Positions 1 through 29,638 of a stretch of 64,000 nt of DNA are shown piece by piece (the first letter of the stretch is position 1; each line of letters starts with the position of its first letter). The notes under the pieces are model-generated. The model did not search any database. It saw only the letters and a program-made list of their open reading frames with translations, and was not told where the DNA came from. The DNA comes from an uncultured Veillonellaceae bacterium (GTDB taxonomy: Bacteria > Bacillota > Negativicutes > Veillonellales > Dialisteraceae). Made by a program: the position numbers and the translations under genes. The DNA lies in contig CASEBK010000031.1 in the NCBI GenBank assembly GCA_949286115.1, positions 62,001 through 126,000 of the forward strand, written 5' to 3'.

Positions 1-3000
1 TTCCGGATGGTCTCCAGATCTTCGATAGCCTCCCGCGTGGCCCATCCCGATCCGGCCACGTCCTCCAACGTGGACAGGTAGAAATGTGCTGCCTCGTGGA
101 TCACTGTGGACTGGTCCGCCGCATCGAAGAGGTGGATCACGTTCTCTCCGGCATTGTAGGCTCCGCGGTACTGACTGCGCGCCGCTTCCTGATTGAACCG
201 GTCAATGATCGCCACGGCCTGATCATCGAAGACGACGAAGCAGCGGCCGTCTCGCCTCCCCTCATAGGTAATTCCCTTGATCCCGTGTTTGTTCAAATAC
301 AAGGATGCCTCGCGTGCCCCCGCGCCTCTTCCCGCTGTCAGTGTTCTTCCAAGGCATTCATATGCGCTCTCTCCTGTTATCTTCGTTTCCGCTGCAAATG
401 CCTTCATCGGATCTTCTTTCGCTTTCCTGATTTTCCTTGTTTTTCGATCGAAACCCTCCCGGAAATACAATTTATGCCAAAATGTTTCCTGCTCGTCTTC
501 TGAAAGGTCTTCTATTGCTTTCGTAAACAATTCCAAGACATGATGATCCTGTTCACTCATCGTCTTCTGTTCATCCAGCAGAACATCATTTTCTGGTATT
601 TCTACCTTGAACAGCGTAGAACTCTTTTTTGCGCGGAAGTCTCCGATTCTCAGCAAAGCAATAGCTCCATTCAGCCATTCCCTATATCTGTTTGCCGGTG
701 GTGTTTCCTTCCCCTTGATTCTGTCTACACTTTTCTGAATATCTTCTATAGCTGCCTGTATGCTCCCTTTTTCCATGAACTTGTCAATCGCAAGACTCTC
801 TGGATCGCCATATGCAAAAGTGATATCCCCCGACGTCCAATCGCCCTCTTCATTCAGATGGTATTCCTTCCCGTTATAAATGACCGAGTCCGTGTCGGCT
901 CTTAAAACTTCTTTGTATGCTTGCGATATTTCCCGGTTTTTTGCAAAATACAGTCCCCATCCATGGGCGGCGTTTCCTTCCCCGCTTCCGATTTTTCCGA
1001 GGTCGAATTGGTCGAAAGAATATGGACTCCCGTGCCATGCGGTCTGGAAGTATACCTTCGCCCGCGTCGCGGCGCGCTGTGTTTTCTCCTGCCGGTCTCC
1101 GTCCTTCTCCGGATCGTACCGCACGATGGACAGCCCCTGCGACTTGAGGAAATCCGTTACTTCCCGGCTCGTCCCTTTCGGAACGACGGCGGCGGAGAAC
1201 TCGCTGAATCCCACGGCCCGCTGCGGTTTGGCTTCGAAGTAGTCCGTGGTTACTTTCTCTGCCGCTTCAATGGCTTTTATTCCCCATTGAACGGACCCGC
1301 TGTTTGCTGTCACACGGAATCCCGCCTTTTTCATGACCGCAGCGATGGAAGCTGCCGATCTTTTCCCGCTTGCCGCCGCCTTCGCCAGAGCCGCATTCGC
1401 TTCGTCCATAGCGTCCCACGAGTCCCCGTTATAGTCCTTCGCCGCCTCTTTCCTGTATTCTTCCATGGCATTTTTATATGCGCTGTATCCCGGGGCCGTT
1501 TCGTCATCGGCTTCCAGCATATCCCGCATGCTTTTCATATCATCGATCGACGTGAATTTTCTGGCCATGACCGCCAGTACGGCGTTGTCCGTCAGGAATC
1601 CGTCCGTTTCTTTTCCCGCCCCCCGTTTCTTTTTCATGGCGGATACGATGTTTTCAAGCGTAGCTGGTTCCATCTTGTTTCCGATTTTTACATACGGATC
1701 CCCGAAGACTTCGTCCAGCTTCTCCTTCACCCATTCTTTATATCCATCCATATATTTATCCAGCGTTTTTCTCAGTTTTGCCTCGTCAACGATCTGTTCT
1801 TTTGCCTTCCTCACCTCTTCATACAAACGTTCTACCGTCTCCTGCTTCAGGATTTCGTTTTCATCAAAATATTTCTTCCTGTCATATTCTGCTCTCTCAA
1901 GCTCCCTTTCCAAATATTCGGTTCTTCGGCTCGTTTTCATCTTACGTTTCAGGGCCGCTATCCAGTCGTCCATCTTCTCTCCGATCTTTTCGGAGAGCTT
2001 TCTGTAAGCCTCTCCCCCGTATTTCAATGGCTTTCGCCTCGTTTTACTCATAACGGAGAATATTTCCGGATCCCCCAATATGGATTCGTACTCATAAACG
2101 CCTTTATCCTTCATCGGAATCTTTACCGACCGGTTCTTCTCTTCCTCCACATACCGGAGTTTCATCCCCATGCTGCTTTCTGCCGCGCGTTCTGCTCCGT
2201 TCCGGTTTCTGTTTCTGATGTGATACATCATTTCAGAAAGATCTCTGTCTGCTCCGACCTTTTTGAAATATTCCTCCCCGTCTTTTTTGAAGTCCTGCAC
2301 GTTCTTCTCTTTTGGCGCTTTGTATACGATCTCCGGGAATCTCGTCGTATAGGCGTCTCTGCTCCACACGTCGTTTCCGCTCTCCGGTGCCACCATATCC
2401 TTTGTTCCGATGAGTGTGATCTCTCCGAAATTCGCGAAGGGGATGTTTTTCTTTGTAACGGCAAGGGACGGCATGGGAAGGCCGCCCAGCTTTGCCGATG
2501 CCATGAGCTTATCCGCTGTGGTATTGTGATAAACCACAAGGTCTGCATCAGCACGTTCCTCTGCCATCTGTCGGTAGATATTGCCGGACTTGTATATCTT
2601 TGCTTTTTCTGTTACATTTAACGTAGAAGAAGGCGATGTGTGCTCCTCTTCGGCCGCCCTCGAAAGGCGGTCGCTCAGGATTGCATTTACATCGCTTTCT
2701 ATTTTTTTGTATTCTTCTTCCGTAAATACATTGTGGTTCTTATAAGTAAGAACGTCTCCTTTATTGGTTTCCACTGTCACTACTACATACTTTTTCTCCC
2801 CATTAATCATTAAAGCGCCATGAAGGTAATAAAACATCTTCCCGGCGCTTTTTTCTTTTTCACTGGCAGACTCTGTCATTACATTTGCATTCGCGATAAT
2901 TTCTTTCAGACGTTTTACCGCGAAAAGCTTTTCTTTTCTTGCAGCTGTATGGAGCATCTTCTTCCTTCCACTTCCCGTGAAAGCGATGTCCCCATTTTTC

Positions 3001-5903
3001 TTTTCCTCAAAACGAATTTTTCCAAGTATTGCATTATAAGCCGTTCCTCCCTGCAACCGGTTTCTGAAATAGATTTCCGCCTTTTCCCTCAGTTCCTTAA
3101 TATCCGTGTAGGGACCAAACTCGTCCCCTGTGAGTTCCGTCACGTTGAGTTCGTTCCGGTCCAGTTTCTTTCCTTCCGGTGTGGTCTGGAGATAGGCGTC
3201 TTTCCCTGCGGGCTTCTGTCCTGTCTGGATCTTCGCGATGTTCGCGTAGGGAATGTGGTAGGCTTCGTGGAGCGCTTCGGCCATTTTGGCGTAGATGAGG
3301 GCGGAGTCTCTGGCGGCCTGCGCCACGGCCGGATTTCCTCCGGAGAGGGCGCGGAGCGCGGGCACGTAGATCTCGCGGTAGGCGTCGTCGCTCATCTGCG
3401 CGCGGGTGATGAGATCGTCCCGGTCCATCTTGTCCACGTAGACCGTAAGGCCTTCCAGTGTCTCCAGCTTGTTCCTGAGTGCACGGATCTCGTCCCCCGC
3501 TGCCGCGGCTTCGGGATCGTCGGTGTGTTCGATCTCTTCCAGTGCCTCGTCGCACGCGATATCATAAGCGTCCCGGATACCGGGCGCTTTTTTGTTTTCT
3601 TTGTAAAATTTCGAGTACCACCCTTCGTTGACGGATACGCGGCGGCTCTCGTACTGACCTCCTTCGCCCACGATGTCGATGATCCCCACGTTGGAGAGGT
3701 GCGTCCTCTTCCGGTGGTCCTTGATGTAGGCGATCTTGTCTTCCACGTCTGTGAGCTGCGCGATCTGCTCTTTCACGCGGTCGATCGCCCGGCCGAGAGA
3801 TCCTTTCACGTCGTAGATGTCATCGGAGAGTACTTCTTCCATGGCGGCCCGTTCTTCGTTGTTCTCCTGGAAGTCCCGATCGAGGATCGCCTGCGCGGCC
3901 TTCTGCTCCCGCTCGTTCCTTGTTTCCGCCATGGCGTCGCGGGCGGCCTTCATTCTCCGTCTGGCTTCGCGGATATCCGCCAGCGTCCGCCCTCCCTTAT
4001 CGTAGGTGGCGTGGTCGGCGAGGATCTGCGCCGTCCCTTCGGAGACTTCCTGCATGTAAACGCCCGGTTTCAGTTCCAGAGGAGCGCCGCTTGCCACGGC
4101 GTCTGTCACTTCTTTTTCCGTGGCCACGTGTTTATCCACCAGTTCGGACAATGCCGCCCGTCCTTCTTCCGTTTCGGCTGCACTGGCGGCGTCTACATAG
4201 AGCGTGTCTTTCCCGGCCCGGGCCATCTGGTTCTGGATTGTCTCCGCGTAGACTTCCGGGGAACGTTTGTACAGATGATTGCTTTCCCTGTCTTCCACGA
4301 GTTTGACGGTCATGGCTTTTTCGTTTTCCCGCTTGTATTCTTCCACAGCGTCGTGGAGCTCCGGCCCGGTGAGCATCCGAAGCGCTTTATACTGCGCTCC
4401 TCCGCGAAGTCCTGCGCCGGGGAGGGCCATGCCGATCGCCGCGGGCGCGGCCTGCACCATGGCTTCCACGGCGTTCCATAAGATGTCCTTTCCGCTCTTC
4501 GCGTCGTTCCCGAAGACGGTCTCGTCGATATCCGCCACGGCCTGCTGGAGTCCTTCTTCGAGGATCTCCGCTCCGGCGCCCCGGGCGAGCTGCTTTGTCC
4601 CCTGCCATGCGGCGCTTTTCATCATGGCCGCCCGTCCCGCGGTGAGGAGTTTATTCCTTGCCATGGTATTCCTGATGAGCGCTTCGGCGGTCTGCTTCCC
4701 AAATGCCTTCTGTATGGGCCCAAAAACGGCGATTTCCGCCCCGATGGTCTCCATCCCTGCCTGCCACATGGCCTGCGTCCTTGCGCGGGCTATGGCCTCG
4801 TCTTTCGTGTACAGAGCGCGGCCTGTGGCGTCCCGTTTCGTCTTCATGCTCCAGTAGTTCTGCGCCGCCATCTGTTTGTACGAGCCGAGAAAAGTGGACA
4901 TGGCGACGATCCCCAGCCCGGATACAGCGGTTCCCACGGCAAGCGGTACGCCCGCTGCCCCTACGCCTGCAGCGGCCATAGCGCTTCCTGCGGCGGCTCC
5001 CGCTGCTGGAGCATAGCGAAGGACTTCCCGGAGCATCATGGCCCCCTGGGGCCCCATCTTTCCGATGAGCTGGTGCGCCCCGTTGTAGGTGGTCTGTACC
5101 ATGTTGGCCAGGTTCTCCACCGTGGCTCCTACGAAGAGGTCGTTCTTTCCGTAGACGTTCTCATACTGCTGCGACGCCGAGATGAGTGGGCGAAGCCGGG
5201 CTTCCGTTTCCGCATCGGAGAGGGTGCCGTCCATGTTCTGCGCCATGATCATGGAGGATTCGTAGTCTCTGAGACCCTGCCGCCATGCTTCGGCGATGGA
5301 GTTCCCGGCGGTGAGAGAGTAGGCGTCCACCGTGCGGCGGCTGTTCAGCACGTCGTTGTAGTCCCGGAGCGCCATGGAGGCGGCCACGGTGTTCGACGGG
5401 TCCACTTCTGGATAGAGTTCTTTGAGCGTCTTCGGTGTGAAGGGCTTCCCCTGCAGGAAATCCCGGCTCCGCTGCCCCTGATACGCTTTCGCCGCTTCGT
5501 TCAGCAGGTCCGGATCGTCGAGGAGCGCCTGCGGAGAGAGACCCAGGGCTTTCCCCGTCTGGTAGGCCAGCTTCTCCGTGTTCTCATCCGCCTCGCCGCC
5601 GAAGAGGTTTCTCCATACGCCGTTCCACTGCATCTTTACTGCATCCGCTACAGAGGACAGGCTCAGTCCGTTTCCGGCCGGTCCTGCCACCGCTTCTCCC
5701 CTTTCCATCCGCGGAGCAGGCTTCAGTCCTTCGTAGCTTTCAGAGCGCGCCATTTCCGTGGCGCTCATGGGGCGTCCGTTTTCATTCATCAGGATCGGCT
5801 GCGGCATGTCCTGCGGCCCCCGATACGCGCGGAGCGGCGTTTCCCCGCGAAGGGTCCGCACGACGCGGGCCATCCGATCGTTATCGCTTTCAAATTCTGT
5901 CAT
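1..5903 (-). CDS. Large polyvalent protein, partial (ADP-ribosyltransferase-like and metallopeptidase domains)
   Basis: The reading frame starts at 5903 (ATGA overlap with the upstream gene) and is still open at position 1, so at least 1967 codons are present and the C-terminus is missing. I read the frame at several points and it stays in register. Residues about 282-330 are a long Ala/Gly-rich hydrophobic stretch. Residues about 930-1075 resemble the LPD3 nuclease-like domain of phage polyvalent proteins. Residues about 1120-1175 contain a VVYHN...MPSLAVTKK module common in such proteins. Residues about 1300-1400 are charged and probably coiled coil. Residues about 1615-1680 contain TAWHGSPYSFDQFD and HGWGLYFAKN, matching the ART-PolyVal family. 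Residues 1936-1940 are HEAAH, a zincin motif. By position it replaces T7 gp16 and is probably packaged and injected to act on the host; that role is inferred. Confidence 0.88.
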   Translation of the reverse strand, partial: MTEFESDNDRMARVVRTLRGETPLRAYRGPQDMPQPILMNENGRPMSATEMARSESYEGLKPAPRMERGEAVAGPAGNGLSLSSVADAVKMQWNGVWRNLFGGEADENTEKLAYQTGKALGLSPQALLDDPDLLNEAAKAYQGQRSRDFLQGKPFTPKTLKELYPEVDPSNTVAASMALRDYNDVLNSRRTVDAYSLTAGNSIAEAWRQGLRDYESSMIMAQNMDGTLSDAETEARLRPLISASQQYENVYGKNDLFVGATVENLANMVQTTYNGAHQLIGKMGPQGAMMLREVLRYAPAAGAAAGSAMAAAGVGAAGVPLAVGTAVSGLGIVAMSTFLGSYKQMAAQNYWSMKTKRDATGRALYTKDEAIARARTQAMWQAGMETIGAEIAVFGPIQKAFGKQTAEALIRNTMARNKLLTAGRAAMMKSAAWQGTKQLARGAGAEILEEGLQQAVADIDETVFGNDAKSGKDILWNAVEAMVQAAPAAIGMALPGAGLRGGAQYKALRMLTGPELHDAVEEYKRENEKAMTVKLVEDRESNHLYKRSPEVYAETIQNQMARAGKDTLYVDAASAAETEEGRAALSELVDKHVATEKEVTDAVASGAPLELKPGVYMQEVSEGTAQILADHATYDKGGRTLADIREARRRMKAARDAMAETRNEREQKAAQAILDRDFQENNEERAAMEEVLSDDIYDVKGSLGRAIDRVKEQIAQLTDVEDKIAYIKDHRKRTHLSNVGIIDIVGEGGQYESRRVSVNEGWYSKFYKENKKAPGIRDAYDIACDEALEEIEHTDDPEAAAAGDEIRALRNKLETLEGLTVYVDKMDRDDLITRAQMSDDAYREIYVPALRALSGGNPAVAQAARDSALIYAKMAEALHEAYHIPYANIAKIQTGQKPAGKDAYLQTTPEGKKLDRNELNVTELTGDEFGPYTDIKELREKAEIYFRNRLQGGTAYNAILGKIRFEEKKNGDIAFTGSGRKKMLHTAARKEKLFAVKRLKEIIANANVMTESASEKEKSAGKMFYYLHGALMINGEKKYVVVTVETNKGDVLTYKNHNVFTEEEYKKIESDVNAILSDRLSRAAEEEHTSPSSTLNVTEKAKIYKSGNIYRQMAEERADADLVVYHNTTADKLMASAKLGGLPMPSLAVTKKNIPFANFGEITLIGTKDMVAPESGNDVWSRDAYTTRFPEIVYKAPKEKNVQDFKKDGEEYFKKVGADRDLSEMMYHIRNRNRNGAERAAESSMGMKLRYVEEEKNRSVKIPMKDKGVYEYESILGDPEIFSVMSKTRRKPLKYGGEAYRKLSEKIGEKMDDWIAALKRKMKTSRRTEYLERELERAEYDRKKYFDENEILKQETVERLYEEVRKAKEQIVDEAKLRKTLDKYMDGYKEWVKEKLDEVFGDPYVKIGNKMEPATLENIVSAMKKKRGAGKETDGFLTDNAVLAVMARKFTSIDDMKSMRDMLEADDETAPGYSAYKNAMEEYRKEAAKDYNGDSWDAMDEANAALAKAAASGKRSAASIAAVMKKAGFRVTANSGSVQWGIKAIEAAEKVTTDYFEAKPQRAVGFSEFSAAVVPKGTSREVTDFLKSQGLSIVRYDPEKDGDRQEKTQRAATRAKVYFQTAWHGSPYSFDQFDLGKIGSGEGNAAHGWGLYFAKNREISQAYKEVLRADTDSVIYNGKEYHLNEEGDWTSGDITFAYGDPESLAIDKFMEKGSIQAAIEDIQKSVDRIKGKETPPANRYREWLNGAIALLRIGDFRAKKSSTLFKVEIPENDVLLDEQKTMSEQDHHVLELFTKAIEDLSEDEQETFWHKLYFREGFDRKTRKIRKAKEDPMKAFAAETKITGESAYECLGRTLTAGRGAGAREASLYLNKHGIKGITYEGRRDGRCFVVFDDQAVAIIDRFNQEAARSQYRGAYNAGENVIHLFDAADQSTVIHEAAHFYLSTLEDVAGSGWATREAIEDLETIR

Positions 5904-8113
5904 GACATCATCCCGTTCTGTCTCTGGAAAAACAAGTTGTCTTCGGTGATCTGCCCCTTCATGAGGCGGTCCAGTTCATACACGTGCACGTCGTAGGAGC
6001 TTCCGTCATTGAAGTAGACGGTCCGGTAGTTCGGATCGTCTGTGGGAGTGACGGCTCGTATGCCCCGGATGCGGAGATCCGCCGCAGATACGGTCTCTTC
6101 TCCGGTGTTGATGTTCTTCGTGAGATTTTTCTTCAGCATGGACCTGAGCTCCTGCTGCGACGGCCACCGTTTGTTTTCGGCGTAGTACTCGCCCGCTTCC
6201 TGCTTCGTCATTTCCTGCGCTGTCCCCCACTGTGTCTGGTCGATCTGATTCGATGCCCCGTACATCTCTTTGGAGATCTCGTCTTTTCCCGCCATGATCT
6301 CCACGCCTTTCCCGTTCATTTGGTCGGCGAGTTTGTCTACGAGAGCCTGGAATTGTTCGGCAGAGATGATCATCCCCGAGTCCTGCACGGCTTTCCCCAG
6401 TTCGTCTATACTTCGGATGTCTCCGCCGGAGATCATCGCCTTCAGCCGGAAGATCTCGTCATTGGAGGCCTTTCCTGCGCCCCCGCTGCCCCGGCTCTGT
6501 CCGGTGGCCGCCGCGGTCTGCACGTCTTTCAGGGATTCGTGGAGCACGTAGTATTGCGCCATGTCCGTGAGTTCCGGCCGGAGGCGCGCCGCGTCTTCCA
6601 CATAGGATAGGATCTCCGCATTCCCCGCTCCGGCGTCTTTCATCTTCGCCACGTTGAGAGAAAGCTGGTTCCATGAGGACTGTTCTTTCTCCTTCTTCGT
6701 CTTTTTCGCGTCGTCAAATTCCTTGAGGAAGGCGTTTTTATACTGCTCTTCCCATGCCTCCTGCTCTTCCGGCGTTCCAGCCGCCCCACTGTATTCCTTT
6801 GCGAGTCCCTCCACGGAGGCGGCGTAGGCGTTCTCATCGTCGGTGTAGTAGCCGTGCTTCTTCATGAGGCGCGCCACGTCTCCCGCGCTTCTGCACGCCT
6901 GGAGCTCGTCTTTCGAGCAGTTCTGAAGGAGCCACTCTGCGTAGGCATGGCCCGAGTCTTCCGGCGTGTCGTACACCTGGAAGCGGTCTTCCGTGCTGTA
7001 TCGGTTTCCGTTCTCGTCCACTTCTTCGGTCTGGAAGGTCTGATACCGTCCCTGTCCGGTCCACTTGTACCCGAAGTAGTTATTTCCCGGCGCGGCGGCT
7101 CCCCGGCCGGATTCGTGTGCGGCCACGGCGGTCCCCCACGAGGGGTCCCATCCTTCGATGCCTGCGGCGGCCATATCCTTCGCCACGGCGTTCCCAATCG
7201 CCCCGAGAGCGGTCCCGTCTGCTTTGTTCGGCGCCCGGTACGGGTGGTCTTTCCCGAAGCGCTCCCACGCCTCCTCCGGTGATAGGGTGAGGGCGTCCTG
7301 GTGGGCGGCGAGCCATTCTTTCGCCCCTTCTTTCGTGGTCTTCGCCAGCCCTTTTCCGCGGGCGAAGGCTTCGTATTTCTGAAGCGTCGCCTCGTCGGCT
7401 CCCTTTTCCCGGAGCTTCGGCGTGAGGTCCAATATGTCTTCGGCGCTTCCGGTCTCCGCCATCTGTGATAGCGTCCCTTCCGCCATGTTGTTCAGCACAC
7501 CTTTCATCGCGTTGTCTATGGCTGCCGGATCCATGCCTAGAGAGGCGTAATTGGCCCGCATGCGGCCGTCCATCGAGTCGTAGAGGGTCATAAACTCCGT
7601 CGGGCTCTGGAGGATCTCGTTCTTTGTATTGTCCGCGTCGGCCACGCGCTGGCTCTCCGCATAGGTCTCTCTCCCTGTCCGCTGAAGCACGTTGATCTTC
7701 GTCAGGGTGGAATTGACGTTCGGGTCCGCTTCTTTTCGAAAGAGTTCGTTTTCCAGCCCGCTCCCGATGCCGTATCGCTTCATCACGTCGCTTCGGATCT
7801 TCTGCTCCGCGGCCGTGTAGGCGTCCTGCAGACCTTCGGCCGCTTTCCCCTGCATGGTGTAGGCGAGGCCGTTCGTCTCGTCGTACATGAGCGTGTTGAT
7901 CTGGCGCTTGTAGTCGTTCAGGGCGTCCTGCACGTTGTCGTAGATCCGCTTCTTCCCGATATCGTCGAGAGTGGCGATAGCAAAGCCGAGGGACCGGTTC
8001 ATCTGTTCGGCCCCGGTTTGGCTCGCCCCGTAGGCCGCCGGATCGTCCGCCGGGTTCACGTGCGCCCGGAGGGTGTTCCGGTTGACGCCCGGTGTGAATT
8101 GGGTAAGTTTCAT
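5900..8113 (-). CDS. Internal virion protein with glucosaminidase (GH73-like) domain
   Basis: About 737 residues from the start MKLTQFTPGV, chosen because it follows the stop of the upstream gene closely (TAAAATG) with GGAG upstream; longer starts would read into that gene. The N-terminal half is helical and charged. Around residue 333 the motif AAHESG and then NNYFGYKW match FlgJ/GH73 N-acetylglucosaminidases, where the Glu is catalytic. This is the tail-associated muralytic activity that lets a podovirus cross the cell wall. The C-terminal half is acidic, Lys/Glu-rich and probably coiled coil. It lies between the Gp14-like gene and the giant polyvalent protein, so it fills the slot of T7 gp15/gp16 core proteins. 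Which core protein it equals is inferred from order. Confidence 0.82.
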   Translation of the reverse strand: MKLTQFTPGVNRNTLRAHVNPADDPAAYGASQTGAEQMNRSLGFAIATLDDIGKKRIYDNVQDALNDYKRQINTLMYDETNGLAYTMQGKAAEGLQDAYTAAEQKIRSDVMKRYGIGSGLENELFRKEADPNVNSTLTKINVLQRTGRETYAESQRVADADNTKNEILQSPTEFMTLYDSMDGRMRANYASLGMDPAAIDNAMKGVLNNMAEGTLSQMAETGSAEDILDLTPKLREKGADEATLQKYEAFARGKGLAKTTKEGAKEWLAAHQDALTLSPEEAWERFGKDHPYRAPNKADGTALGAIGNAVAKDMAAAGIEGWDPSWGTAVAAHESGRGAAAPGNNYFGYKWTGQGRYQTFQTEEVDENGNRYSTEDRFQVYDTPEDSGHAYAEWLLQNCSKDELQACRSAGDVARLMKKHGYYTDDENAYAASVEGLAKEYSGAAGTPEEQEAWEEQYKNAFLKEFDDAKKTKKEKEQSSWNQLSLNVAKMKDAGAGNAEILSYVEDAARLRPELTDMAQYYVLHESLKDVQTAAATGQSRGSGGAGKASNDEIFRLKAMISGGDIRSIDELGKAVQDSGMIISAEQFQALVDKLADQMNGKGVEIMAGKDEISKEMYGASNQIDQTQWGTAQEMTKQEAGEYYAENKRWPSQQELRSMLKKNLTKNINTGEETVSAADLRIRGIRAVTPTDDPNYRTVYFNDGSSYDVHVYELDRLMKGQITEDNLFFQRQNGMMS

Positions 8114-8114
8114 T

Positions 8115-8876
8115 TTATCTGCTCCACGGGTTCTTGAATGCGTAGATGGAATTTCTGTTCGAGAGCCTGGACGGGTTCCATACCTTTGTCCCCGTTGTCG
8201 CCGCAAAGTTGTTCAGCAGATTATTCCCCGCCCGCTGCGCCGCGTTCTGGTAGGCGAAGGTGGGCGTTGTGTACCCCAAGCTGCCCCCTACCGTCCCGGT
8301 AAAGCCGCTGTTCATCTTGTCCATGAGGTTTCCCCCTGCTGAGGCGCTCTTTCCCGAAGAGAATGGGTTCCCGTAGGTGTTGTAGATCCCGTACATGCCT
8401 ATGGCCGTATTGATGAGAGTGGAGAGGCCCGCCTTCTTAGACTGGCTTCTCGTATTGGCCGCCGCGGCGCGGGCCTGCCTCCCCTGATTGATGTAATTCA
8501 CCTGGTTGGCCCACGCGGTAAGGGCGTCGTTTCTCTGGTTGGACAAAAGGTCCATGCTGTCCTGTCTGTACTGGTCAATGGCGGCTGTTCCCGCGTCCAG
8601 CACGCTTCCCCCGCCTGTGAGGCCGGACGCCCCGGCGCTGGCCGCCTGCTGGCCGAGGATGAGCCGCTTCCTGTCGTCGAGGCGTTTCTGCTGCTGCGCG
8701 TAGTTGTCCGCCACCTGTTCCCGCTGCCGGTCGGCGATCCTGGCGTTCTGCTCCGCTGCCTGCGCCTGCGCGTCGTAGGCCGCCGCCTGCGCCTTATACT
8801 GGCTCTGCTGCGTTCTGTACTGTCCATAACCCTGAAGCGCCGTAAGGCCCATCAGAGCTGCGCTCACTCCGCACAT
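8115..8876 (-). CDS. Internal virion protein, Gp14-like
   Basis: 253 residues. It opens with a short hydrophobic MCGVSAALMGLTALQGYGQY segment, then a long Gln/Ala-rich helix (residues about 20-75) and a Gly-rich linker, which is the typical layout of T7 gp14-family internal core proteins that form the outer-membrane pore during ejection. A further hydrophobic stretch near residues 150-165 (STLINTAIGMYGIYNTYG) fits membrane insertion. The start has GAGGG eight bases upstream. It overlaps the Gp13-like gene by 13 bases and is followed within two bases by the glucosaminidase protein, so the three are translated as one unit. Family membership rests on composition, motif style and gene order. Confidence 0.75.
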   Translation of the reverse strand: MCGVSAALMGLTALQGYGQYRTQQSQYKAQAAAYDAQAQAAEQNARIADRQREQVADNYAQQQKRLDDRKRLILGQQAASAGASGLTGGGSVLDAGTAAIDQYRQDSMDLLSNQRNDALTAWANQVNYINQGRQARAAAANTRSQSKKAGLSTLINTAIGMYGIYNTYGNPFSSGKSASAGGNLMDKMNSGFTGTVGGSLGYTTPTFAYQNAAQRAGNNLLNNFAATTGTKVWNPSRLSNRNSIYAFKNPWSR

Positions 8877-9370
8877 GGTTCCCTCCTGATCTCAAAATGC
8901 ACGAGTTCTTCCCCGTTCCACTGTTCGCGGAAGAGCTCCGTCTTTAGGCCCGGTATCCTGTCCGTCCCCCGGATATATCGTACGGCCTTTGTGTTCTCCG
9001 CGGAGATCCAGTTCGTGAGAGGGCCGTATTTCATGACCGACTTTCTGATGAAGTCATAGCCCACGGCCACGAGGGCTTTCCGGCTCCCCTTGACGGCTTC
9101 CGCAGCGAGCATCCACACGAGGTTCTTTTTCCCCTGCACGATGCCGTACACACAGAGGAGCGTTCCATCTCTTCGCGCTTCCCAGCACTCGGCGGACCGC
9201 TCGATGCTCTCTTTCACGTCGTCGTATGGATCCTGCCCGAAGAGCGCTTCTTCCGCCGCGTCTTCGGCGCGCATGTCTTCCGTGAGTTCTTCTGCCAGCT
9301 TCGCCGCGTCTTCTTTCCGCACCGGCCGGACTGCAACGTCATACACGGCCGCCCTCAGTTCTTCACGCAT
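8864..9370 (-). CDS. Gp13-like internal virion protein (GNAT-like fold, DUF2833 type)
   Basis: 168 residues. The sequence has the pattern of phage Gp13/DUF2833 proteins, which look like degenerate GNAT acetyltransferases: an N-terminal VRPVRKEDAAKLAEEL strand-helix, a central LLCVYGIVQGKKNLVWMLA beta pair, and a C-terminal NTKAVRYIRG helix. In T7 gp13 is needed for assembly of the internal core rather than for acetylation; enzymatic activity here is unlikely but not excluded. It sits between the tail nozzle and the Gp14-like gene with short overlaps at both ends, the normal T7-like order. A GGGAGG ribosome site lies nine bases before the start. Confidence 0.75.
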   Translation of the reverse strand: MREELRAAVYDVAVRPVRKEDAAKLAEELTEDMRAEDAAEEALFGQDPYDDVKESIERSAECWEARRDGTLLCVYGIVQGKKNLVWMLAAEAVKGSRKALVAVGYDFIRKSVMKYGPLTNWISAENTKAVRYIRGTDRIPGLKTELFREQWNGEELVHFEIRREPCAE

Positions 9371-12107
9371 TGATGACTACCTCCCTTACGATCGCCGCCA
9401 GATTGAACGGATAGGGCTCCGATGTCTCGATGAGAACGCGGCCGTGCTTCTCTACGCCCGGATTCGGGATGGTCACTTCTTTGTCGTCGGTGTATAGGGT
9501 AACTTCCTGTCCCTGGAGCTCGTCGTATTTGATCTCGTCCATGGGGCCTTTCCCGTTCCCCACTTTCCCTCCGAGGGAGTGGAGCAGGCGGAGAGAGACG
9601 CCGCGCACGTTCTTATTTCTTCCCTGTACGGTCCCCTGCTGTGTGTTGATCTCCACATTGGGCAGTTCGATCTTCGTCGTGTACGGCATGCCCACGATCA
9701 TCCTCTTCGCTTCTGCGGGGATCTGGAAATGCCCGTCTTCGTCGATTTCTATATCGCTGAAATACCGGCCGTCAGCGAGCACGCCCGCCTTTTCTCCCGC
9801 CAGATGCGGCGCGGCGGCCTCCGCCTTCCCTTCGATCTGTACGGCGCAGTCCATCATGACGGAATCCATGGGGTCGTCTGATTCGGCCGCCATGGTGAGC
9901 CGTTCGATGGTCCGCACTTCCTGTCCTCTGAGGTCCCGCTTCACGACGGCATATACACAATCTTCTTCCTCTTCTTCCACGTCGCATACGCTCTCGAAAT
10001 TCCCCTCTGTGACGAGGTGAGACCAGGCGTAGACCTTCTGGTCCTTCACGTAGGACAGACAGGCGATATGCCCGTTTTTCAGCGCGAAATAGAGCACGCT
10101 GTCGGGGTCCTGCATGTAGGTCTGGTCGATGATCTCCGTATCCTTCGTGAGATGCTTTGCAAGGAGGGTGAGATCCATGCCGTCGTAGTTGTCCGTCTCG
10201 AAGCTGTACCCCATGTCCCGCACGGTCTTTCCGCGCCGCTGGACATAGACGATGCGCCCGCCCACGACGGTCGGTATGGCGTCCGTACATCCCCGGCTCG
10301 TCTGGAGCTTCGGCACCGCTTCCGTCGGCGTCACGGTGGACGCGCCCGATACGGTCCATTCGTCCCCGTCTGTCATGATGATGAGGTCGGAAGCGGGCAC
10401 GATGTGCCGGATGGTGTTCTGCTTTCTGGAAATGAAAGAGAGCGCCACGGCGCTGTCGTCGGTGACGGTCCCGGAGGCTTTTCCCACGGAGAAGTTCCCG
10501 TAGTCTCCCGTTCGGGACATCCACAGGTAGTACGGCTGCTGTTTCGTTGCCGCCAGGCACAGCCGGTCCTGGAAGAATCCGATCGCCGAGGGCCAGCCAT
10601 AGTAGTCGCTCCACGCGCCCCACATGTATCCGGATACGGCTTTTGTGCTTCCCAGCGGCTCGATCACGTCGGCCTTCGCTTCGGTCCCGCTTACGACTTC
10701 TGTGATCTTCACGATCCCTTCGTGGGTGTAGGGGAGAATGGTGAGATCGGAGTTCCCCGCGGTGGAGACGATGCGGAGTCTTGTATATTCGTCCACGGTC
10801 CCCGACTCCGAGGCGTTGAAGTCATTATTGGACTTGTATTCCCGGTAGTCTTCCCATTCTTCGCCGTTCACAGATTTCTGGATCTTCACACTGCCGGACC
10901 ACGTGCCGTGGGTGATGATCTTCCACTGGTCTCCGCACAGGACGTCGGCGGATGTGCCCCCGCCGTTCTGCGTGACGGTCTGCGAAGGCATATCGTGCTG
11001 GATCTTCATATAGGAGCCCGTCATGGCGGGCTGAAAGAAATTCTTGCTCGCCGTGAGTGTTATGGAATCCGTAGTCCCGGAGGGCGTCAGCGTCAGTTCC
11101 GCTTCCCTTCGGATGGATACCCAGCCGGGATGTCCTGCCGACGCATTCCCACTTCTTGTTCCTGCGCTTCCTCCGGCCCCTCCGTCCCCATAGGACGTCC
11201 CTGCCGTCCCAGGACTCGTAGATCCATGTTTTCCGCTCTCCACGACACGAGCTCCGGTTCCTCCCCCTCCGCCTTTGCTTGTTTCTCCGTCGAAAGAAGA
11301 GCTTTCTCCATTTTCTCCGTCTCCGCCGTTGGCATTAGCTCCGCCGTCTGCTCCTCCTGCTCCTCCTGCTCCTATCACAATCGTATACTTCTTATTTTTC
11401 TCAAGTGTTTTCTGTATGGTCTTGACTTCTCCCGTTCCACCTGCGCCTCCGTTGTCATCATCCACCTCATGAAATGCCAGATGTGGGTCGTTGGTATAGT
11501 ACCCGACACGCGTCCATTCTCCGCCGCCTCCGCCCGCCCCGGCAATGGTGATGGTATATGTCCCGTCGGCGGGAGCGATGTACGTATAGGTACCCGGCGT
11601 CCCGTAGTATTCGTCTACTCCCTTTTCCAGTTCCGCTCCCAGGAGCGCGTCGTAATACTGGTCGGTAATTTCAAATTCTTCGAACCGCCAATCGTCATCG
11701 GCATATCGTGAGAGGGTCATGACGGGATGCGTCCCCGAGGCGATGAAGAGCACGTCCGCGGACTGAGCGAAGCGCAGCCGGTCCAGGTCGTCTTCAGTGT
11801 AGGGCGTTACGCATTCCTGGCCTAAGTACGTTCCGTCCTTCCACATCCTCACGTATCCTTCGCCCAGTTCCAGCATGTATCCCGTTCCAAAGGGTCGGAG
11901 GATGCAGCGCTTGTCCGGGTATTTAGCCTCTCCGCAGTATAGGGAGCCTCCCCGGCGGATGACGGACCCGTAGGGTCGGATATAGCAGTTCTCCGCGTTG
12001 ATGAGTGCACTGCCGTACTTGTCGATGTCCGTGCGGTTCGACACTTCCGGCGAGACTTCCCCTGCTGTGAAGGACGCCTGCATAACGTACATGGTCTCCG
12101 GGCTCAT
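9363..12107 (-). CDS. Tail nozzle (tubular protein B-like) with inserted glycine-rich domain
   Basis: 914 residues, encoded directly after and overlapping the tail tubular protein A gene, with GGAGG before the start. The first 150 residues (NRTDIDKYGSALINAENCYI, then PFGTGYMLELGEGYVRMW) and the region after about residue 330 (FFQDRLCLAATKQQPYYLWMSRTGDY) are typical of podovirus nozzle/stabilisation proteins. Between them, residues about 165-325, lies a block made largely of Gly, Ala, Ser and Asn, starting TYTYIAPADGTYTITIAGAG and including GGAGGADGGANANGG. Such glycine-rich sandwich domains are known at phage fibre tips and may bind the host surface. The insertion is an unusual place for one. 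The DNA over it is somewhat less GC-rich and repetitive. Confidence 0.85.
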   Translation of the reverse strand: MSPETMYVMQASFTAGEVSPEVSNRTDIDKYGSALINAENCYIRPYGSVIRRGGSLYCGEAKYPDKRCILRPFGTGYMLELGEGYVRMWKDGTYLGQECVTPYTEDDLDRLRFAQSADVLFIASGTHPVMTLSRYADDDWRFEEFEITDQYYDALLGAELEKGVDEYYGTPGTYTYIAPADGTYTITIAGAGGGGGEWTRVGYYTNDPHLAFHEVDDDNGGAGGTGEVKTIQKTLEKNKKYTIVIGAGGAGGADGGANANGGDGENGESSSFDGETSKGGGGGTGARVVESGKHGSTSPGTAGTSYGDGGAGGSAGTRSGNASAGHPGWVSIRREAELTLTPSGTTDSITLTASKNFFQPAMTGSYMKIQHDMPSQTVTQNGGGTSADVLCGDQWKIITHGTWSGSVKIQKSVNGEEWEDYREYKSNNDFNASESGTVDEYTRLRIVSTAGNSDLTILPYTHEGIVKITEVVSGTEAKADVIEPLGSTKAVSGYMWGAWSDYYGWPSAIGFFQDRLCLAATKQQPYYLWMSRTGDYGNFSVGKASGTVTDDSAVALSFISRKQNTIRHIVPASDLIIMTDGDEWTVSGASTVTPTEAVPKLQTSRGCTDAIPTVVGGRIVYVQRRGKTVRDMGYSFETDNYDGMDLTLLAKHLTKDTEIIDQTYMQDPDSVLYFALKNGHIACLSYVKDQKVYAWSHLVTEGNFESVCDVEEEEEDCVYAVVKRDLRGQEVRTIERLTMAAESDDPMDSVMMDCAVQIEGKAEAAAPHLAGEKAGVLADGRYFSDIEIDEDGHFQIPAEAKRMIVGMPYTTKIELPNVEINTQQGTVQGRNKNVRGVSLRLLHSLGGKVGNGKGPMDEIKYDELQGQEVTLYTDDKEVTIPNPGVEKHGRVLIETSEPYPFNLAAIVREVVINA

Positions 12108-12964: not shown

Positions 12965-13298
12965 CGAGCACCAGCGCCGAGGTGACTTTCCCGGTGGTCG
13001 CTCCGGTCACTGCCGCCTTCAGATACTTCTTCAGCCCGTGGGGGAGACGGACGGACGCTTTAGACCCTGCCTCTTTCTTGAGCGCAAGGGTCAGGAGCGT
13101 ATCCGCGCCAGACATGTCTTCGCTGTCTGCGGTGGTGAGCGTCACGGTGGCGTCCGCGTTCAGGGCCTCATCCACTTTCGCCATGAGAAAGAGGCCCTCG
13201 TAGGCGTCTCCGCCGCCGCTGTTGGCCACTACATTCCCGCCCGCGTCGCTTGCGAGGTCCTGATTCCACATGAAGGTGTTTTCTGCGTCGTAGATCAT
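12948..13298 (-). CDS. Capsid cement protein, Bbp16-like
   Basis: 116 residues, directly after the major capsid gene with an AAGGAGG ribosome site. It begins MIYDAENTFMWNQDL, has a Gly/Asp loop, and continues with beta-rich segments (YEGLFLMAKVDEALN, ATVTLTTADSED, KVTSALVLDVDVR). This pattern and position match the Bbp16 family that decorates and stabilises the BPP-1-type capsid. It probably forms trimers or dimers on the capsid surface. The overlapping downstream start of the tiny HeH protein suggests coupled translation. Confidence 0.75.
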   Translation of the reverse strand: MIYDAENTFMWNQDLASDAGGNVVANSGGGDAYEGLFLMAKVDEALNADATVTLTTADSEDMSGADTLLTLALKKEAGSKASVRLPHGLKKYLKAAVTGATTGKVTSALVLDVDVR

Positions 13299-14320
13299 TA
13301 CACTGCCTCCTTGATGACTGCTTCTTCCGTGGTGAGCGCCTGCTCTTCCAGGACGCGGATGCCGTTCACGTAGTACTCCGGAATGCCGCCCATGATGTCT
13401 TTCCGCGTGATGTACGCGTTGTTCTTGTCCACGTAGTAGAGGTTGATGAGCGTCATGAGTTCAGACGGGACGTACCACGCCGCGTCCACGCCGCTGAAGC
13501 TGCGGATCTTGTGCTGGGCGATGATCATGTTGTCGATGATCGCCTTCTTCTGCTCTTCCGTCGCGCTTTCCAGCTTGAGCTGTTCCATATCGATGTTTCG
13601 TACTGCTGCCACCATGCGCGGATCGCGGATCGCAAGTCCTGCTTTCCAGTTGAAGAGGGTAGTGACGCCGCGGAATTTCTTCCCGCTCTCGTCGGTGCAC
13701 CAGTCTTCGCCCATGTCCTGCTGTTTGAGGCCTGCGGTGCCGTACTTCGGGTAGACGCCCATGGCGGCCTGATCCCCGAAGCAGACGAGCCATGCTGAGG
13801 CCTGCTTGTTCTCCGTGGTCCCGCCTGCATTCACCACCTGATAGCTGTAGTCGTTCTTCTTGCCGCCGTACGCGTTGTACCGGCTCGCGAAGCCGTTAAA
13901 TTCATCGGGGTTCGCGTCGCTGTCTCCGTAGAAGATCATGTCCGCCACCTGCTGGGTCATGCCTTCCACGATGGCCGCGTCTTCGGACGCGCGGAATGCC
14001 GCCGGGTCGGGCTGAAGGTTCATGAGCTCCACGTCGATCTGGCTGTGCGCTTCCAGCATGGCGCACGTATCGGTGACCTGCCGCGTGGTGCTCTTCACAT
14101 TGCCCACGCCGCGGTTGATGCGGCGGAGCTCCGCTCTGGGTACGGACGTTCTCTGCGTGGTCTGGTTGCCCGTGGGCAGGTTCCCCTGGATCCACCGGAT
14201 GTGTTCCATGATGGGGTCGGACTGGCGCACGATGTCGATGATCTGCGCCATGGTGCCGTCTGGGTTGAGCCGTTTCTTGAGGTCGTTGAAAGTGAGTGCG
14301 TATTCGCCGATTGCTGTCAT
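13298..14320 (-). CDS. Major capsid protein
   Basis: 340 residues. It follows the scaffold gene (overlap of one base) and has a strong GGAGGG site. The N-terminal region ALTFNDLKKRLNPDG, the segment SDPIMEHIRWIQGNLPTGNQ and the conserved PRAELRRINRGVGNVKSTTR loop are characteristic of BPP-1/Bbp17-like HK97-fold capsid proteins. There is no obvious N-terminal prohead-protease propeptide; assembly depends on the separate scaffold protein next door. The expected strong expression fits its ribosome site. Neighbours (scaffold, Bbp19, cement) agree. Confidence 0.88.
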   Translation of the reverse strand: MTAIGEYALTFNDLKKRLNPDGTMAQIIDIVRQSDPIMEHIRWIQGNLPTGNQTTQRTSVPRAELRRINRGVGNVKSTTRQVTDTCAMLEAHSQIDVELMNLQPDPAAFRASEDAAIVEGMTQQVADMIFYGDSDANPDEFNGFASRYNAYGGKKNDYSYQVVNAGGTTENKQASAWLVCFGDQAAMGVYPKYGTAGLKQQDMGEDWCTDESGKKFRGVTTLFNWKAGLAIRDPRMVAAVRNIDMEQLKLESATEEQKKAIIDNMIIAQHKIRSFSGVDAAWYVPSELMTLINLYYVDKNNAYITRKDIMGGIPEYYVNGIRVLEEQALTTEEAVIKEAV

Positions 14321-14895: not shown

Positions 14896-15223
14896 TGTTT
14901 CCTCCTTCGAAAATCTGTTCCTGCTTCATGGAAAACTGTATGTACTCCCGCTCCGCCTGCTGGCGTATCTCCACGGATTCATACCCGAGGAGCCCGGCCA
15001 GTTCGTCGATGAGCTGGATCCCCACTTCCCGCATGCCTTCGTTGAAGTAGGTGAAGCTGTTTCCCGTCATGACTCTTGCGCGGTAGTTGGTCCTGTCGAG
15101 GATCCGCATAAGGATCCAGCGCCCCTCTTCGGTGGCGAGGATCTTCTTCCAGGCGTCCCTGTCTTTTTCTTCCCGCGCTTCCCGGAGATATTTCTCCCAC
15201 GCGGCGCTCCTTGCGTCTGTCAT
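14888..15223 (-). CDS. Bbp19-like phage protein
   Basis: 111 residues. The central pattern EGRWILMRILDRTNY followed by MTGNSFTYFNEGMREVGIQL is the hallmark of the Bbp19 family found between portal and scaffold genes of BPP-1-like podoviruses. Function is unknown; the conserved position suggests a head-assembly role. The N-terminus (residues 1-25) is a charged helix. The start overlaps the portal stop (ATGA) and the 3' end overlaps the scaffold start, so it is part of the tightly coupled head operon. Confidence 0.75.
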   Translation of the reverse strand: MTDARSAAWEKYLREAREEKDRDAWKKILATEEGRWILMRILDRTNYRARVMTGNSFTYFNEGMREVGIQLIDELAGLLGYESVEIRQQAEREYIQFSMKQEQIFEGGNNG

Positions 15224-16989
15224 ACGGCGCTGCCTCCCGGCGCGTTGATCCCCATGAGGGCCTGCAGAGCGGGGTTCCCGTCCTGCGCCGCTTCGGTGAG
15301 GTTCTTCGCCGCCTGCGCTGCCGGAGCCGCTGCCTGTGCGTACATGGCCTGCTGCTGGGCTTCGGCCTGCTGCTGCATCATCTGCTGTTCCTCCTGGATC
15401 ATTCTCTCCACTTCTTCAGCGGAGCGCTGCATCCGCCCCGGCGCGCCGAGCATTTCAAAATACTCCGTGACGGCCCCGATGGGGTCGACTTTCTTCACGG
15501 CGTCCGGCCAGAGCTGCGACATCTGCCCCGCGAAGGCCACCGCCTGTTCGATGTTGACGAGGCCGCTCATCTTCTGCGCCTGCGCGAGAGGGCTGATGTA
15601 TTCGATCTTCACTTCTTCCGCGGAGAGCCGCTCCGCCACGTCGTCCGGTATGGGCGGGAAGGCCCCCATCCGTTCGAGGATGTTGTACGTCCTCTCGATG
15701 ATGGGCGATAGAAATTCATCCTGAAGCCGCTCCACCACCGGGCCGAGCTGCTGGAGCTTTTCCTGCTGGAGGATCATCACTTCCCTGGCGGTCTTCTGCG
15801 GCGCGTCCACCGCGTTGGACAGCATGAGGAATAGATCGGCGCTGTAGATCCGCTTGATGGTCTCTTCCGCTGCCTGGATCTCCGCCGCCAGCCACTGCGG
15901 GTTGGACTGGATCTGGAACAGCGGCCGTACCCCGGCGGTCCCGAGCTGCATCTCCTTCGTGTACCCGCCGGGGATGAGGTTCACGCGCCGGATGTCTGCC
16001 GGACCCACCATGGGGGGCTTCACGAGGAGCTCTGCCGCGGTGAGCATGTCCCGCTTCATCTTCTGCAGCCCTTTGGCGTCGCCTTCGGCGTACCACCCCG
16101 GTCCGAATCCGTAGGTGTTTCCTCCCACCACCTGATACCGGGCGGTGGGTACGGGAAATTCTTCAAATCCCCCCGCGTAGAGGTACTTCCCGTCTCCCTG
16201 GCCTTCCAGCCAGTAGAGCGAGGCGTAGGGCATGTTCCGGTTCCCCGGCGTCCCCGGAATGCGGCTGTCGTTGGGAAGGACGAGCCACCACACGTTGAAT
16301 TTTCGTGAGTACCGTCCCCCGCTGTTCTGCAGCGCGTCTTTCACGGTCTGCGGGAGATTTTCTTCCCCAAACTGTTCCAGGATCTGCACGGCGTTCATCT
16401 GGAAGCACCGGGCGAAGGTGTTCACGGTCCCGCCCGGCCCTGTCCCGAGATAGTAGGTCCCGATGGTGTAGTTCTGGAAGCGCACGCCTGTTTCCATGGA
16501 TGGAAAAACTCCCATCGGGGCCTGCCCGAACGGGAGTTCCATGTAACAGTTGTGCACACAGTTGTAGAAATTGGACCGGTGGAGGAAGTACTCTGTGATC
16601 TTCTGCCTGACGTCTAAGACTTCCATGGCTTCCACGTCTCCCTCCGCTTCAGTCCGGGAGAAAGCCATCTTGAACCACTGCCGAGACGGCGGCGTGAGGC
16701 CGCTCATCACGCCCGCCCCGAAGGCGATCGCGCTCATCCACGCCACGCCGTCGGCGATCTTCACGTCCCGCCTCCGCCCGCGGTCCACCAGGTCGTCCGT
16801 GTCCCGAAATTCCCCGAGGAAGGGAAGCTGGTAGTCCCGGATGTCCTTCCAACGTTCTTCCCATGTCTGCCGCTCTGCCGCCATGGCTTTGACGCGCGCC
16901 ACGGCCACTTCTTTTCTGATCTGCTTCGGCGCCGCTTCGTCGGCCGGAAGAAATTCCCTGCTGGCGGCGTCCGCTGCGAGCGTCATCAT
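15220..16989 (-). CDS. Portal (head-to-tail connector) protein
   Basis: 589 residues. The N-terminal segment RRRDVKIADGVAWMSAIAFG followed by GVMSGLTPPSRQWFKMAF is diagnostic for the T7 gp8-type head-to-tail connecting protein, which forms the dodecameric DNA channel at one capsid vertex. The last 90 residues are rich in Gln, Ala and Met (MIQEEQQMMQQQAEAQQQAM), matching the C-terminal helical barrel of such portals. Length is usual for the family. It starts within the stop of the 73-residue gene and ends over the start of the Bbp19-like gene. Confidence 0.93.
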   Translation of the reverse strand: MMTLAADAASREFLPADEAAPKQIRKEVAVARVKAMAAERQTWEERWKDIRDYQLPFLGEFRDTDDLVDRGRRRDVKIADGVAWMSAIAFGAGVMSGLTPPSRQWFKMAFSRTEAEGDVEAMEVLDVRQKITEYFLHRSNFYNCVHNCYMELPFGQAPMGVFPSMETGVRFQNYTIGTYYLGTGPGGTVNTFARCFQMNAVQILEQFGEENLPQTVKDALQNSGGRYSRKFNVWWLVLPNDSRIPGTPGNRNMPYASLYWLEGQGDGKYLYAGGFEEFPVPTARYQVVGGNTYGFGPGWYAEGDAKGLQKMKRDMLTAAELLVKPPMVGPADIRRVNLIPGGYTKEMQLGTAGVRPLFQIQSNPQWLAAEIQAAEETIKRIYSADLFLMLSNAVDAPQKTAREVMILQQEKLQQLGPVVERLQDEFLSPIIERTYNILERMGAFPPIPDDVAERLSAEEVKIEYISPLAQAQKMSGLVNIEQAVAFAGQMSQLWPDAVKKVDPIGAVTEYFEMLGAPGRMQRSAEEVERMIQEEQQMMQQQAEAQQQAMYAQAAAPAAQAAKNLTEAAQDGNPALQALMGINAPGGSAV

Positions 16990-17219: not shown

Positions 17220-18635
17220 TCACCACAGATCGTAGTCTGTGTTCACGATGTCCCCTCCGTCTTCGCTGACCACCGGCGCGGCGAATGTGAGCGCCAGCGC
17301 GTCGGCGTCGTTCGGCGAGGGGACGCCTTCTTTCTTCATCTCGTCCTTGCTTTTGAGCTGGATCTTCCCGTCCATCGTGGGCTTGATCTCCACATGGGTG
17401 AGATCGTCGATGAGCTGCCGATCCGCTGGGATGACGCCGCCGGTCTTCAGCCATTTCCTCATCTCGTTCCACATGTGGGCCCGCATGTTGACGCACTCCG
17501 GCGAGGGCGACGCGCCGGAGAAGGGAATGAGCGCCCAGGAGCGCCCCATGGTGACGCCCGCGCTGTAGATTCCTGTTCCGTATCCGAGGTCGATATACAC
17601 AGCCTGCGCGCGGTACTCGTCTTCGAAGCGGGCGATCATCCCGGCCACGGTCATGTCGTTGTCGTTTCTCGTGATGCGGGCGAGCTTCTTCGCGTAGAGC
17701 CCCTGCCTCATCCATATGGCCGTGGCGTCGCCTCCGCTCCACGCGGGGTCCACGCCGATCACCACGGGGGAGAATTTGTACTGCCCGTCGTGGAGGTTCC
17801 TTGCGAGGGAGGCTTTCACGAGCCCCAGTGAGATGAACTGAAGATCTGATGCGTCCGGAAATTCCCCGGTCACGCGGACCTTGAAGAAGTCGCTGTCTTC
17901 TCCGTAGGCTTCGGCCCACTGCGCGATCTTTTTCTTGTCGGAGAATCGCACGGTACGGCTGTCTACCTGCCGCGTGTCCCAGTACGCCCGGAATTTGTGG
18001 AACGCGTCGTAAAATCTCCCCGTATTTCTCGTGGGGTTCCCGAAGGCGCACCACAGACGCTCCGTGTTGGCGTCGGTGAGCGCCCCTTCGGCGACTTCCC
18101 AGATCTTGTCGTCTATGGCGGAGGCTTCGTCAAAGATGAGGAAAGTCCGGTTCCCCTGATTATGGAGGCCCGCGAAGGCTTCGGTGTTGTTGACGCTCCA
18201 CGGAATGGCGTCTACCCGCCAGTTTTTCTCATGCCCCGGCTCTGCGGAGAACATGGCTGTCGCCGTGACTTTCATCAGGGACCCCGCCAGGCACAGAGAG
18301 TGCCACTTCATGAGCTCCGGCCATGTCTTCGTGAGGAGCTGCGTCTCCGTGTTGGCGGTGACGACGCCCCGCGTGTTCTCATGGGTCGCCATGGCCCACA
18401 GGATGAGCCACGCCACGAGGGCGGATTTCCCGATACCGTGGCCGGAGGCTACCGCTTCCTGCACCACGCTGTCCGGCGAGATCCGCTCACCTATGCTTTT
18501 CAGCACGTCCCGCTGCCACGGCTCCGGTCCCGTCTGATCTTTCAGCATGCCCTCGCCCCACGGAAAGGCCCAGTACACGAAGCCCAGCGGGTCGTGCGTG
18601 AGGGCCGCCAGGTCATTGATCAGCTCTTGATTCAT
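17220..18635 (-). CDS. Terminase large subunit
   Basis: 471 residues. It is the ATP-driven DNA packaging motor and headful or site-specific nuclease. The Walker A region reads SGHGIGKSALVAWL (about residues 64-77), Walker B with catalytic acid reads TFLIFDEASAIDD (about 165-177), and the RNase H-like nuclease domain begins with VIGVDPAWSGGDATAIW (about 285-302), supplying the first metal-binding Asp. Length matches the family. It overlaps the end of the small terminase gene by 23 bases and precedes the portal genes, the usual order. Confidence 0.95.
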   Translation of the reverse strand: MNQELINDLAALTHDPLGFVYWAFPWGEGMLKDQTGPEPWQRDVLKSIGERISPDSVVQEAVASGHGIGKSALVAWLILWAMATHENTRGVVTANTETQLLTKTWPELMKWHSLCLAGSLMKVTATAMFSAEPGHEKNWRVDAIPWSVNNTEAFAGLHNQGNRTFLIFDEASAIDDKIWEVAEGALTDANTERLWCAFGNPTRNTGRFYDAFHKFRAYWDTRQVDSRTVRFSDKKKIAQWAEAYGEDSDFFKVRVTGEFPDASDLQFISLGLVKASLARNLHDGQYKFSPVVIGVDPAWSGGDATAIWMRQGLYAKKLARITRNDNDMTVAGMIARFEDEYRAQAVYIDLGYGTGIYSAGVTMGRSWALIPFSGASPSPECVNMRAHMWNEMRKWLKTGGVIPADRQLIDDLTHVEIKPTMDGKIQLKSKDEMKKEGVPSPNDADALALTFAAPVVSEDGGDIVNTDYDLW

Positions 18636-19092
18636 GTAGGCGTTCCCTCGCTTTCTTCAGTGCGTCCGTTGTCCCGATCTCGCCGGACAGCTCCAGCTCC
18701 TGCTTGTCCCGCCAGTGTTTCGGCTTTCTGTTCTTCAGCCAGAATATCGCCGCTATCGTGTCCGGCGGGATCTCCCGGACCGTCTCCCGTTCCGTCACGG
18801 ACACTTTCCCCGTCACGGGATCTTTCACCCGGTGTACCGTTTTCTCCGTCACCGTGCACCCGCACGCCCGTTTGTACAGCGCGTTTTCCACGCGGAAGTC
18901 TGCCACATCCTTACTGATCTTTAGGGCCTGACAAAGTTGACAGAATTTTTCCTTCCACCGGGAGAGAGTCCGGCAGCTGATCCCCATGTTGTGTGCGATG
19001 TCTTCTTCCGTGAGTCCCTGCCGAGCCCAGCCGCCGATGAGTTCGAGGCCGTCCGGAGAGATCCACTTATCCCACCGTTTCGGCGTCGGCAT
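18613..19092 (-). CDS. Terminase small subunit
   Basis: 159 residues. The N-terminus contains a helix-turn-helix (LTEEDIAHNMGISCRTLSRW, about residues 27-47) used for binding the packaging site. The C-terminal part (IAAIFWLKNRKPKHWRDKQE) is the motif that marks phage terminase small subunits and contacts the large subunit. A GGAGGTGAGG site precedes the start. The gene is the first of the late operon, just downstream of a bidirectional terminator. Confidence 0.88.
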   Translation of the reverse strand: MPTPKRWDKWISPDGLELIGGWARQGLTEEDIAHNMGISCRTLSRWKEKFCQLCQALKISKDVADFRVENALYKRACGCTVTEKTVHRVKDPVTGKVSVTERETVREIPPDTIAAIFWLKNRKPKHWRDKQELELSGEIGTTDALKKARERLHESRADQ

Positions 19093-29411: not shown

Positions 29412-29638
29412 TCCCCGCAAGCCCCGACCACGTCTTGCTTCTCCAATTCCATTAAATTATCGGAAGTAATATTTTCTGCAAAATTTCCTTTTATTCGATG
29501 GTTTTTGCATTTTTTACGATTCCATATATCCCATGATTTTTAAGGCCGTCTCTTGATTTCTTTATTGATTTTATATTACCATACATATACTTCAAAGACG
29601 AATGGCATATACGGATTTTTACACCAAATGAGGTCTTT

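Follow-up and report, generated by a model that had tools for sequence, protein, structure and literature searches.

The window, a 64,000-nucleotide stretch (C31:62001-126000) of a 1.86-Mb genome, cuts at its left edge through a giant minus-strand gene that lies among the virion genes of a prophage (Table 1). A Bbp16-like protein and a protease are also encoded among the virion genes to the right of this gene, and a tail-fibre protein, Mtd and a reverse transcriptase are encoded to its left, outside the window. This gene order is that of Bordetella phage BPP-1, including Mtd and the diversity-generating retroelement. A 20-bp repeat that occurs exactly twice in the genome bounds a segment of 40.4 kb (C31:51048-91469), and a tyrosine integrase gene sits immediately within its right end; the prophage therefore looks complete and intact.

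Table 1 Features of the giant gene and its prophage in the window (residue numbers refer to the giant protein).
Feature	Window position	Strand	Remarks
Bbp10-type giant polyvalent protein, residues 1-1967 of 3282	3..5903	-	remainder left of window, C31:58055-62002
Zincin HEAAH motif, residues 1936-1940	84..98	-	candidate third ligand E2015 left of window
ART domain, residues 1618-1900, split by a long insert; H1624, Y1652, D1893	204..1052	-	profile, alignment, model
PBECR5 RNase-like domain, residues 1118-1338, candidate catalytic H1126	1890..2552	-	Pfam E=7.2e-22
LPD3 domain, residues 934-1046	2766..3104	-	Pfam E=4.7e-16, passes cut-off
Conserved N-terminal block, residues 301-900	3204..5003	-	comparison with relatives
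Gly/Ala-rich hydrophobic stretch, residues about 300-342	4878..5006	-	composition
Endolysin with glucosaminidase domain, bbp11 position	5900..8206	-	overlaps giant gene start
T7 gp14-family internal virion protein, bbp12 position	8115..8876	-	
Second internal virion protein (phrog_308)	8864..9370	-	
Nozzle/tail protein, bbp13 position	9363..12107	-	
Major capsid protein (GP7 family)	13298..14320	-	
Head-tail connector (portal)	15220..16989	-	
Terminase large and small subunits	17220..19092	-	
Phage tyrosine integrase	28260..29366	+	inside att repeats
Right copy of 20-bp att repeat	29450..29469	.	left copy C31:51048-51067, outside window

In the end regions examined (L003:3018-3097 and window 29420-29499), the att repeat consists of one 13-bp arm and a 7-bp spacer. 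The left att end also has a second arm in perfect inverted orientation, giving TTACTTCCGATAA-TTTAATG-TTATCGGAAGTAA, as in the core site of a tyrosine recombinase. Another tyrosine recombinase gene (window 29639-30628) lies about 170 bp outside the right repeat; it was rejected as the phage integrase in favour of the one inside the repeats. An Xer/dif integration site was also considered, with no good dif match. The retroelement (C31:53859-56386) comprises a TR at L003:7036-7147, a VR in Mtd at 7224-7335 and the RT at 5859-6917; TR and VR are mismatched at 11 of their 112 positions, each of which is an adenine in the template, and an Avd gene was not found in its BPP-1 position, the VR-TR interval. 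Near the left end of the prophage, an Amidase_2 protein (L003:4027-4593) and a short protein (3274-3639) that has hydrophobic segments at its termini and contains a coiled coil likely make up a lysis module.

Within the window, the giant frame stays open from an ATG for 1967 codons, a run with a chance probability of about 10^-54 at 56% GC. The first-pass annotation had reported a frame of at least this length with its C-terminus missing. Reading the contig beyond the window confirmed the frame and recovered the remainder: the stop lies at L003:10055 (C31:58055), about 3.9 kb past the left edge, and the complete gene encodes 3282 aa with zero internal stops. The LPD3-like region and the hydrophobic region noted in the same annotation were also borne out, the former by its Pfam match and the latter as a Gly/Ala-rich segment at residues 301-342, a character that many relatives share; this segment may insert into a membrane. 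The strongest Pfam match of the whole protein, PBECR5 (78.8 bits against a cut-off of 25), was absent from that annotation; the histidine in its N-terminal helix (in LVVYHN) aligns across three members and corresponds here to H1126. LPD3, PBECR5, ART and zincin all lie within one frame that is encoded among virion genes, as in the polyvalent proteins defined by Iyer et al. 2017. These data support the earlier assignment of a giant polyvalent protein with ART and zincin domains, encoded among the internal-virion-protein genes of a podovirus prophage. PADLOC assigned the giant protein to no known defence family. An HEAYH motif at residues 879-883 raised the possibility of a second peptidase, which was dismissed because relatives do not conserve the motif.

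The ART-PolyVal profile of Pfam matched residues 1623-1665 with an E-value of 0.0023 in the window part (19.1 bits) and 4.8e-5 in a 350-aa segment (24.6 bits), both below the curated cut-off of 31.2 bits. This profile recognises the N-terminal motif only, and the low score is probably explained by the long insert that splits the domain. Six relatives from the same gene slot match ART-PolyVal, with E-values of up to 5.1e-24. In an alignment of 50 homologues with both ART and zincin, H1624 and Y1652 are invariant, while D1893 is D in 46 sequences and N in four. Because these sequences had been picked by motif, the HG histidine and the HExxH residues were partly a condition of entry, which was not so for Y1652, D1893 and, partly, E2015. 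An AlphaFold model of residues 1604-2060 built on this alignment had a mean pLDDT of 87.5 and matched phage or viral proteins annotated as ART-PolyVal or as large polyvalent proteins, in line with an ART-like fold; an earlier model from six sequences (pLDDT 56) was set aside. A Foldseek search of the model against the PDB gave nothing below E=1; MbcT, RES toxins and tankyrase, which have ART-like folds, were among the weak matches and were not counted as evidence. Profile searches with the ART domain, the zincin and the N- and C-terminal blocks likewise gave no significant match among PDB sequences. Overall, the ART-PolyVal domain of the first-pass annotation finds support in conserved motifs and a confident structure prediction, but neither in a Pfam score above the cut-off nor in a significant match to a solved structure.

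The HEAAH zincin motif, also predicted earlier, held up. H1936, E1937, H1940 and the candidate third zinc ligand E2015 are kept in 50/50 of the same motif-picked homologues and are invariant in 11/11 sequences including Bbp10, which is the HEXXH and downstream glutamate arrangement of polyvalent-protein zincins. No zincin was among the PDB matches of the two-domain ART-zincin model. The zincin stands at the head of a conserved C-terminal block that Bbp10 also has, and the Bbp10 zincin has already been published as a member of the CLCA_X family (PMC3650047). Such a domain could be structural or serve packaging only, without acting as a protease in practice, given that encapsidation of the coliphage N4 virion RNA polymerase (vRNAP) depends on its zincin-holding region although the protein is not cleaved (PMC5512222). 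However, a purely structural domain would not need the H, E, H and third E that all 50 homologues keep, and we consider this explanation improbable.

Scanning viral and genome contigs with single sequences gave no matches, but scanning with profiles did. The ART-zincin profile was matched in 54 of 380 genomes of the host class, and viral contigs held at least 549 stretches with a zincin relative and 377 with an ART relative; relatives in viral contigs number in the hundreds. The C-terminal part matches Bbp10, with 40 phage records in all. We then compared the protein block by block with 33 other large proteins, some of them found with the ART-zincin profile, which inflates the counts there, so that the numbers are a guide and not a survey: residues 301-900 are common to 8-15 relatives, residues 1201-1600 to 0-2, the ART zone to 10-11, the zincin region (residues 1901-2100) to 27-28 and the C-terminus beyond residue 2100 to 11-21. 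This pattern shows two conserved blocks, residues 301-900 and 1901-3282, flanking a variable cargo zone; the zincin falls within the second block, whereas the presence of ART and PBECR5 varies from one relative to another. The cargo sets of the relatives differ, drawing on MuF_C, LPD3, LPD22, LPD23, ddrB-ParB, helicase and ART, and in some relatives a lysozyme-type SLT domain is fused into the giant protein itself. A 4599-aa relative in the same family (L032:4516-18315), for example, has an SLT transglycosylase domain fused in its N-terminal part and a PBECR5 match of E=7.2e-77.

Among known systems, BPP-1 Bbp10 (2052 aa) is a homologue by sequence, and the two genes share a slot flanked by bbp11-like and by bbp9/Mtd-like genes. 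The two proteins share a homologous zincin and C-terminal block, with an RNase-like PBECR domain before the zincin; Bbp10, however, is about 1200 residues shorter and has LPD22 and PBECR1, whereas the protein here has LPD3, PBECR5 and ART. The first-pass annotation had placed the gene in the slot of T7 gp16. This was only roughly right: both lie downstream of a gp14-family gene, but the true relative is Bbp10; moreover, gp16 carries a cell-wall enzyme that is here a separate upstream gene, and the N-terminal block lacks a significant solved-structure match. The N4 vRNAP (about 3500 aa) is likewise giant and ejected, and its HExxH domain precedes about 1100 residues that are mostly helical (PMC12633501), but we found no RNA polymerase domain here and no detectable sequence match to solved structures, so this likeness is an analogy only. 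The polyvalent proteins described in 2017 (PMC5512222), which are proposed to enter the host together with the viral DNA, are likewise multidomain, encoded among virion genes and able to combine zincin, ART and PBECR in one chain; the present protein has its own domain combination and a full-length gene, and no other difference in kind was found. Neither the class nor any of the domains nor the Bbp10 zincin is new to the literature; what is new is the domain combination, the full length and intact context, and the quantified division into scaffold and cargo.

The host is probably a member of the Negativicutes, a class with two membranes. Taken as a whole, the giant protein is likely an internal virion (ejection) protein of the Bbp10 type from a temperate podovirus resembling BPP-1, and its conserved N- and C-terminal blocks would probably serve packaging and passage through the two-membrane host envelope. 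The middle zone would be a cargo bay, here with LPD3, the PBECR5 RNase-like domain and ART, and the zincin would most likely cut its own polypeptide, in the head or after delivery, thereby freeing the cargo. Early in infection, the ART would modify host proteins and PBECR5 would cut RNA. We infer that the zincin mainly serves the delivery protein itself, in processing or packaging, and that ART and PBECR5 are injected cargo, a role that fits, by analogy, with T4 Alt and the RNase effectors discussed in PMC5512222. A literature search for virion proteomics of any Bbp10 homologue found none.

Since the zincin is conserved together with the delivery blocks, including in Bbp10, a self-cutting or packaging role seems more likely than the cutting of a host target. 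Iyer et al. 2017 (PMC5512222) proposed zincins as self-processing modules of polyvalent proteins; the same source counts against self-cleavage in that the N4 vRNAP, whose zincin is comparable, goes uncleaved into the virion. That unprocessed packaging would also suit a zincin that is itself the effector and, after injection, cleaves a host defence or regulatory protein while the polypeptide stays whole, as Iyer et al. allowed for (PMC5512222). Yet the zincin tracks the conserved delivery block despite very different cargo, and does so in Bbp10 as well, which is unlike an arms-race effector and makes this role unlikely. Returning to self-processing or packaging, we suggest, tentatively and with some doubt, that BPP-1-like podoviruses share one conserved delivery chassis (an N-terminal membrane block and a zincin with the C-terminal block) into which unrelated effectors are exchanged, the zincin being a general release switch; if true, this would be a modular natural system delivering proteins into the bacterial cytoplasm.

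The locus is unusually complete: the prophage looks intact, the gene is available in full, the well-studied BPP-1 has a homologue, and conserved scaffold is clearly set apart from variable cargo. The proposal of 2017, by which zincins release injected domains, can therefore be put to a direct test, and the locus places the polyvalent architecture in two-membrane Firmicutes.

The same genome encodes, on contig C3, an 821-aa relative with LPD3 and LPD23 (L004:10137-12602), which ends at the ART motif (...AWHG). This break at ART, together with the sub-cut-off ART match of the giant protein, would be expected if the cargo domains were decayed passengers, inactive in this prophage. However, the ART catalytic residues are kept here and in essentially all homologues, the frame is intact across 3282 codons and the part common to the giant protein and this paralogue has a dN of 0.19 and a dS of 0.67; we therefore regard decay as very improbable. 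The paralogue is about 90% identical over residues 688-938 and less so afterwards, and it is followed by an apparent IS3-type transposase; it appears to be a broken second copy. Relatives L079, L081, L082, L084-L088 and L094 carry a further HExxH, mostly HEIQH, as does the LPD23-containing L004 protein; this motif possibly marks a second peptidase type among the cargo.
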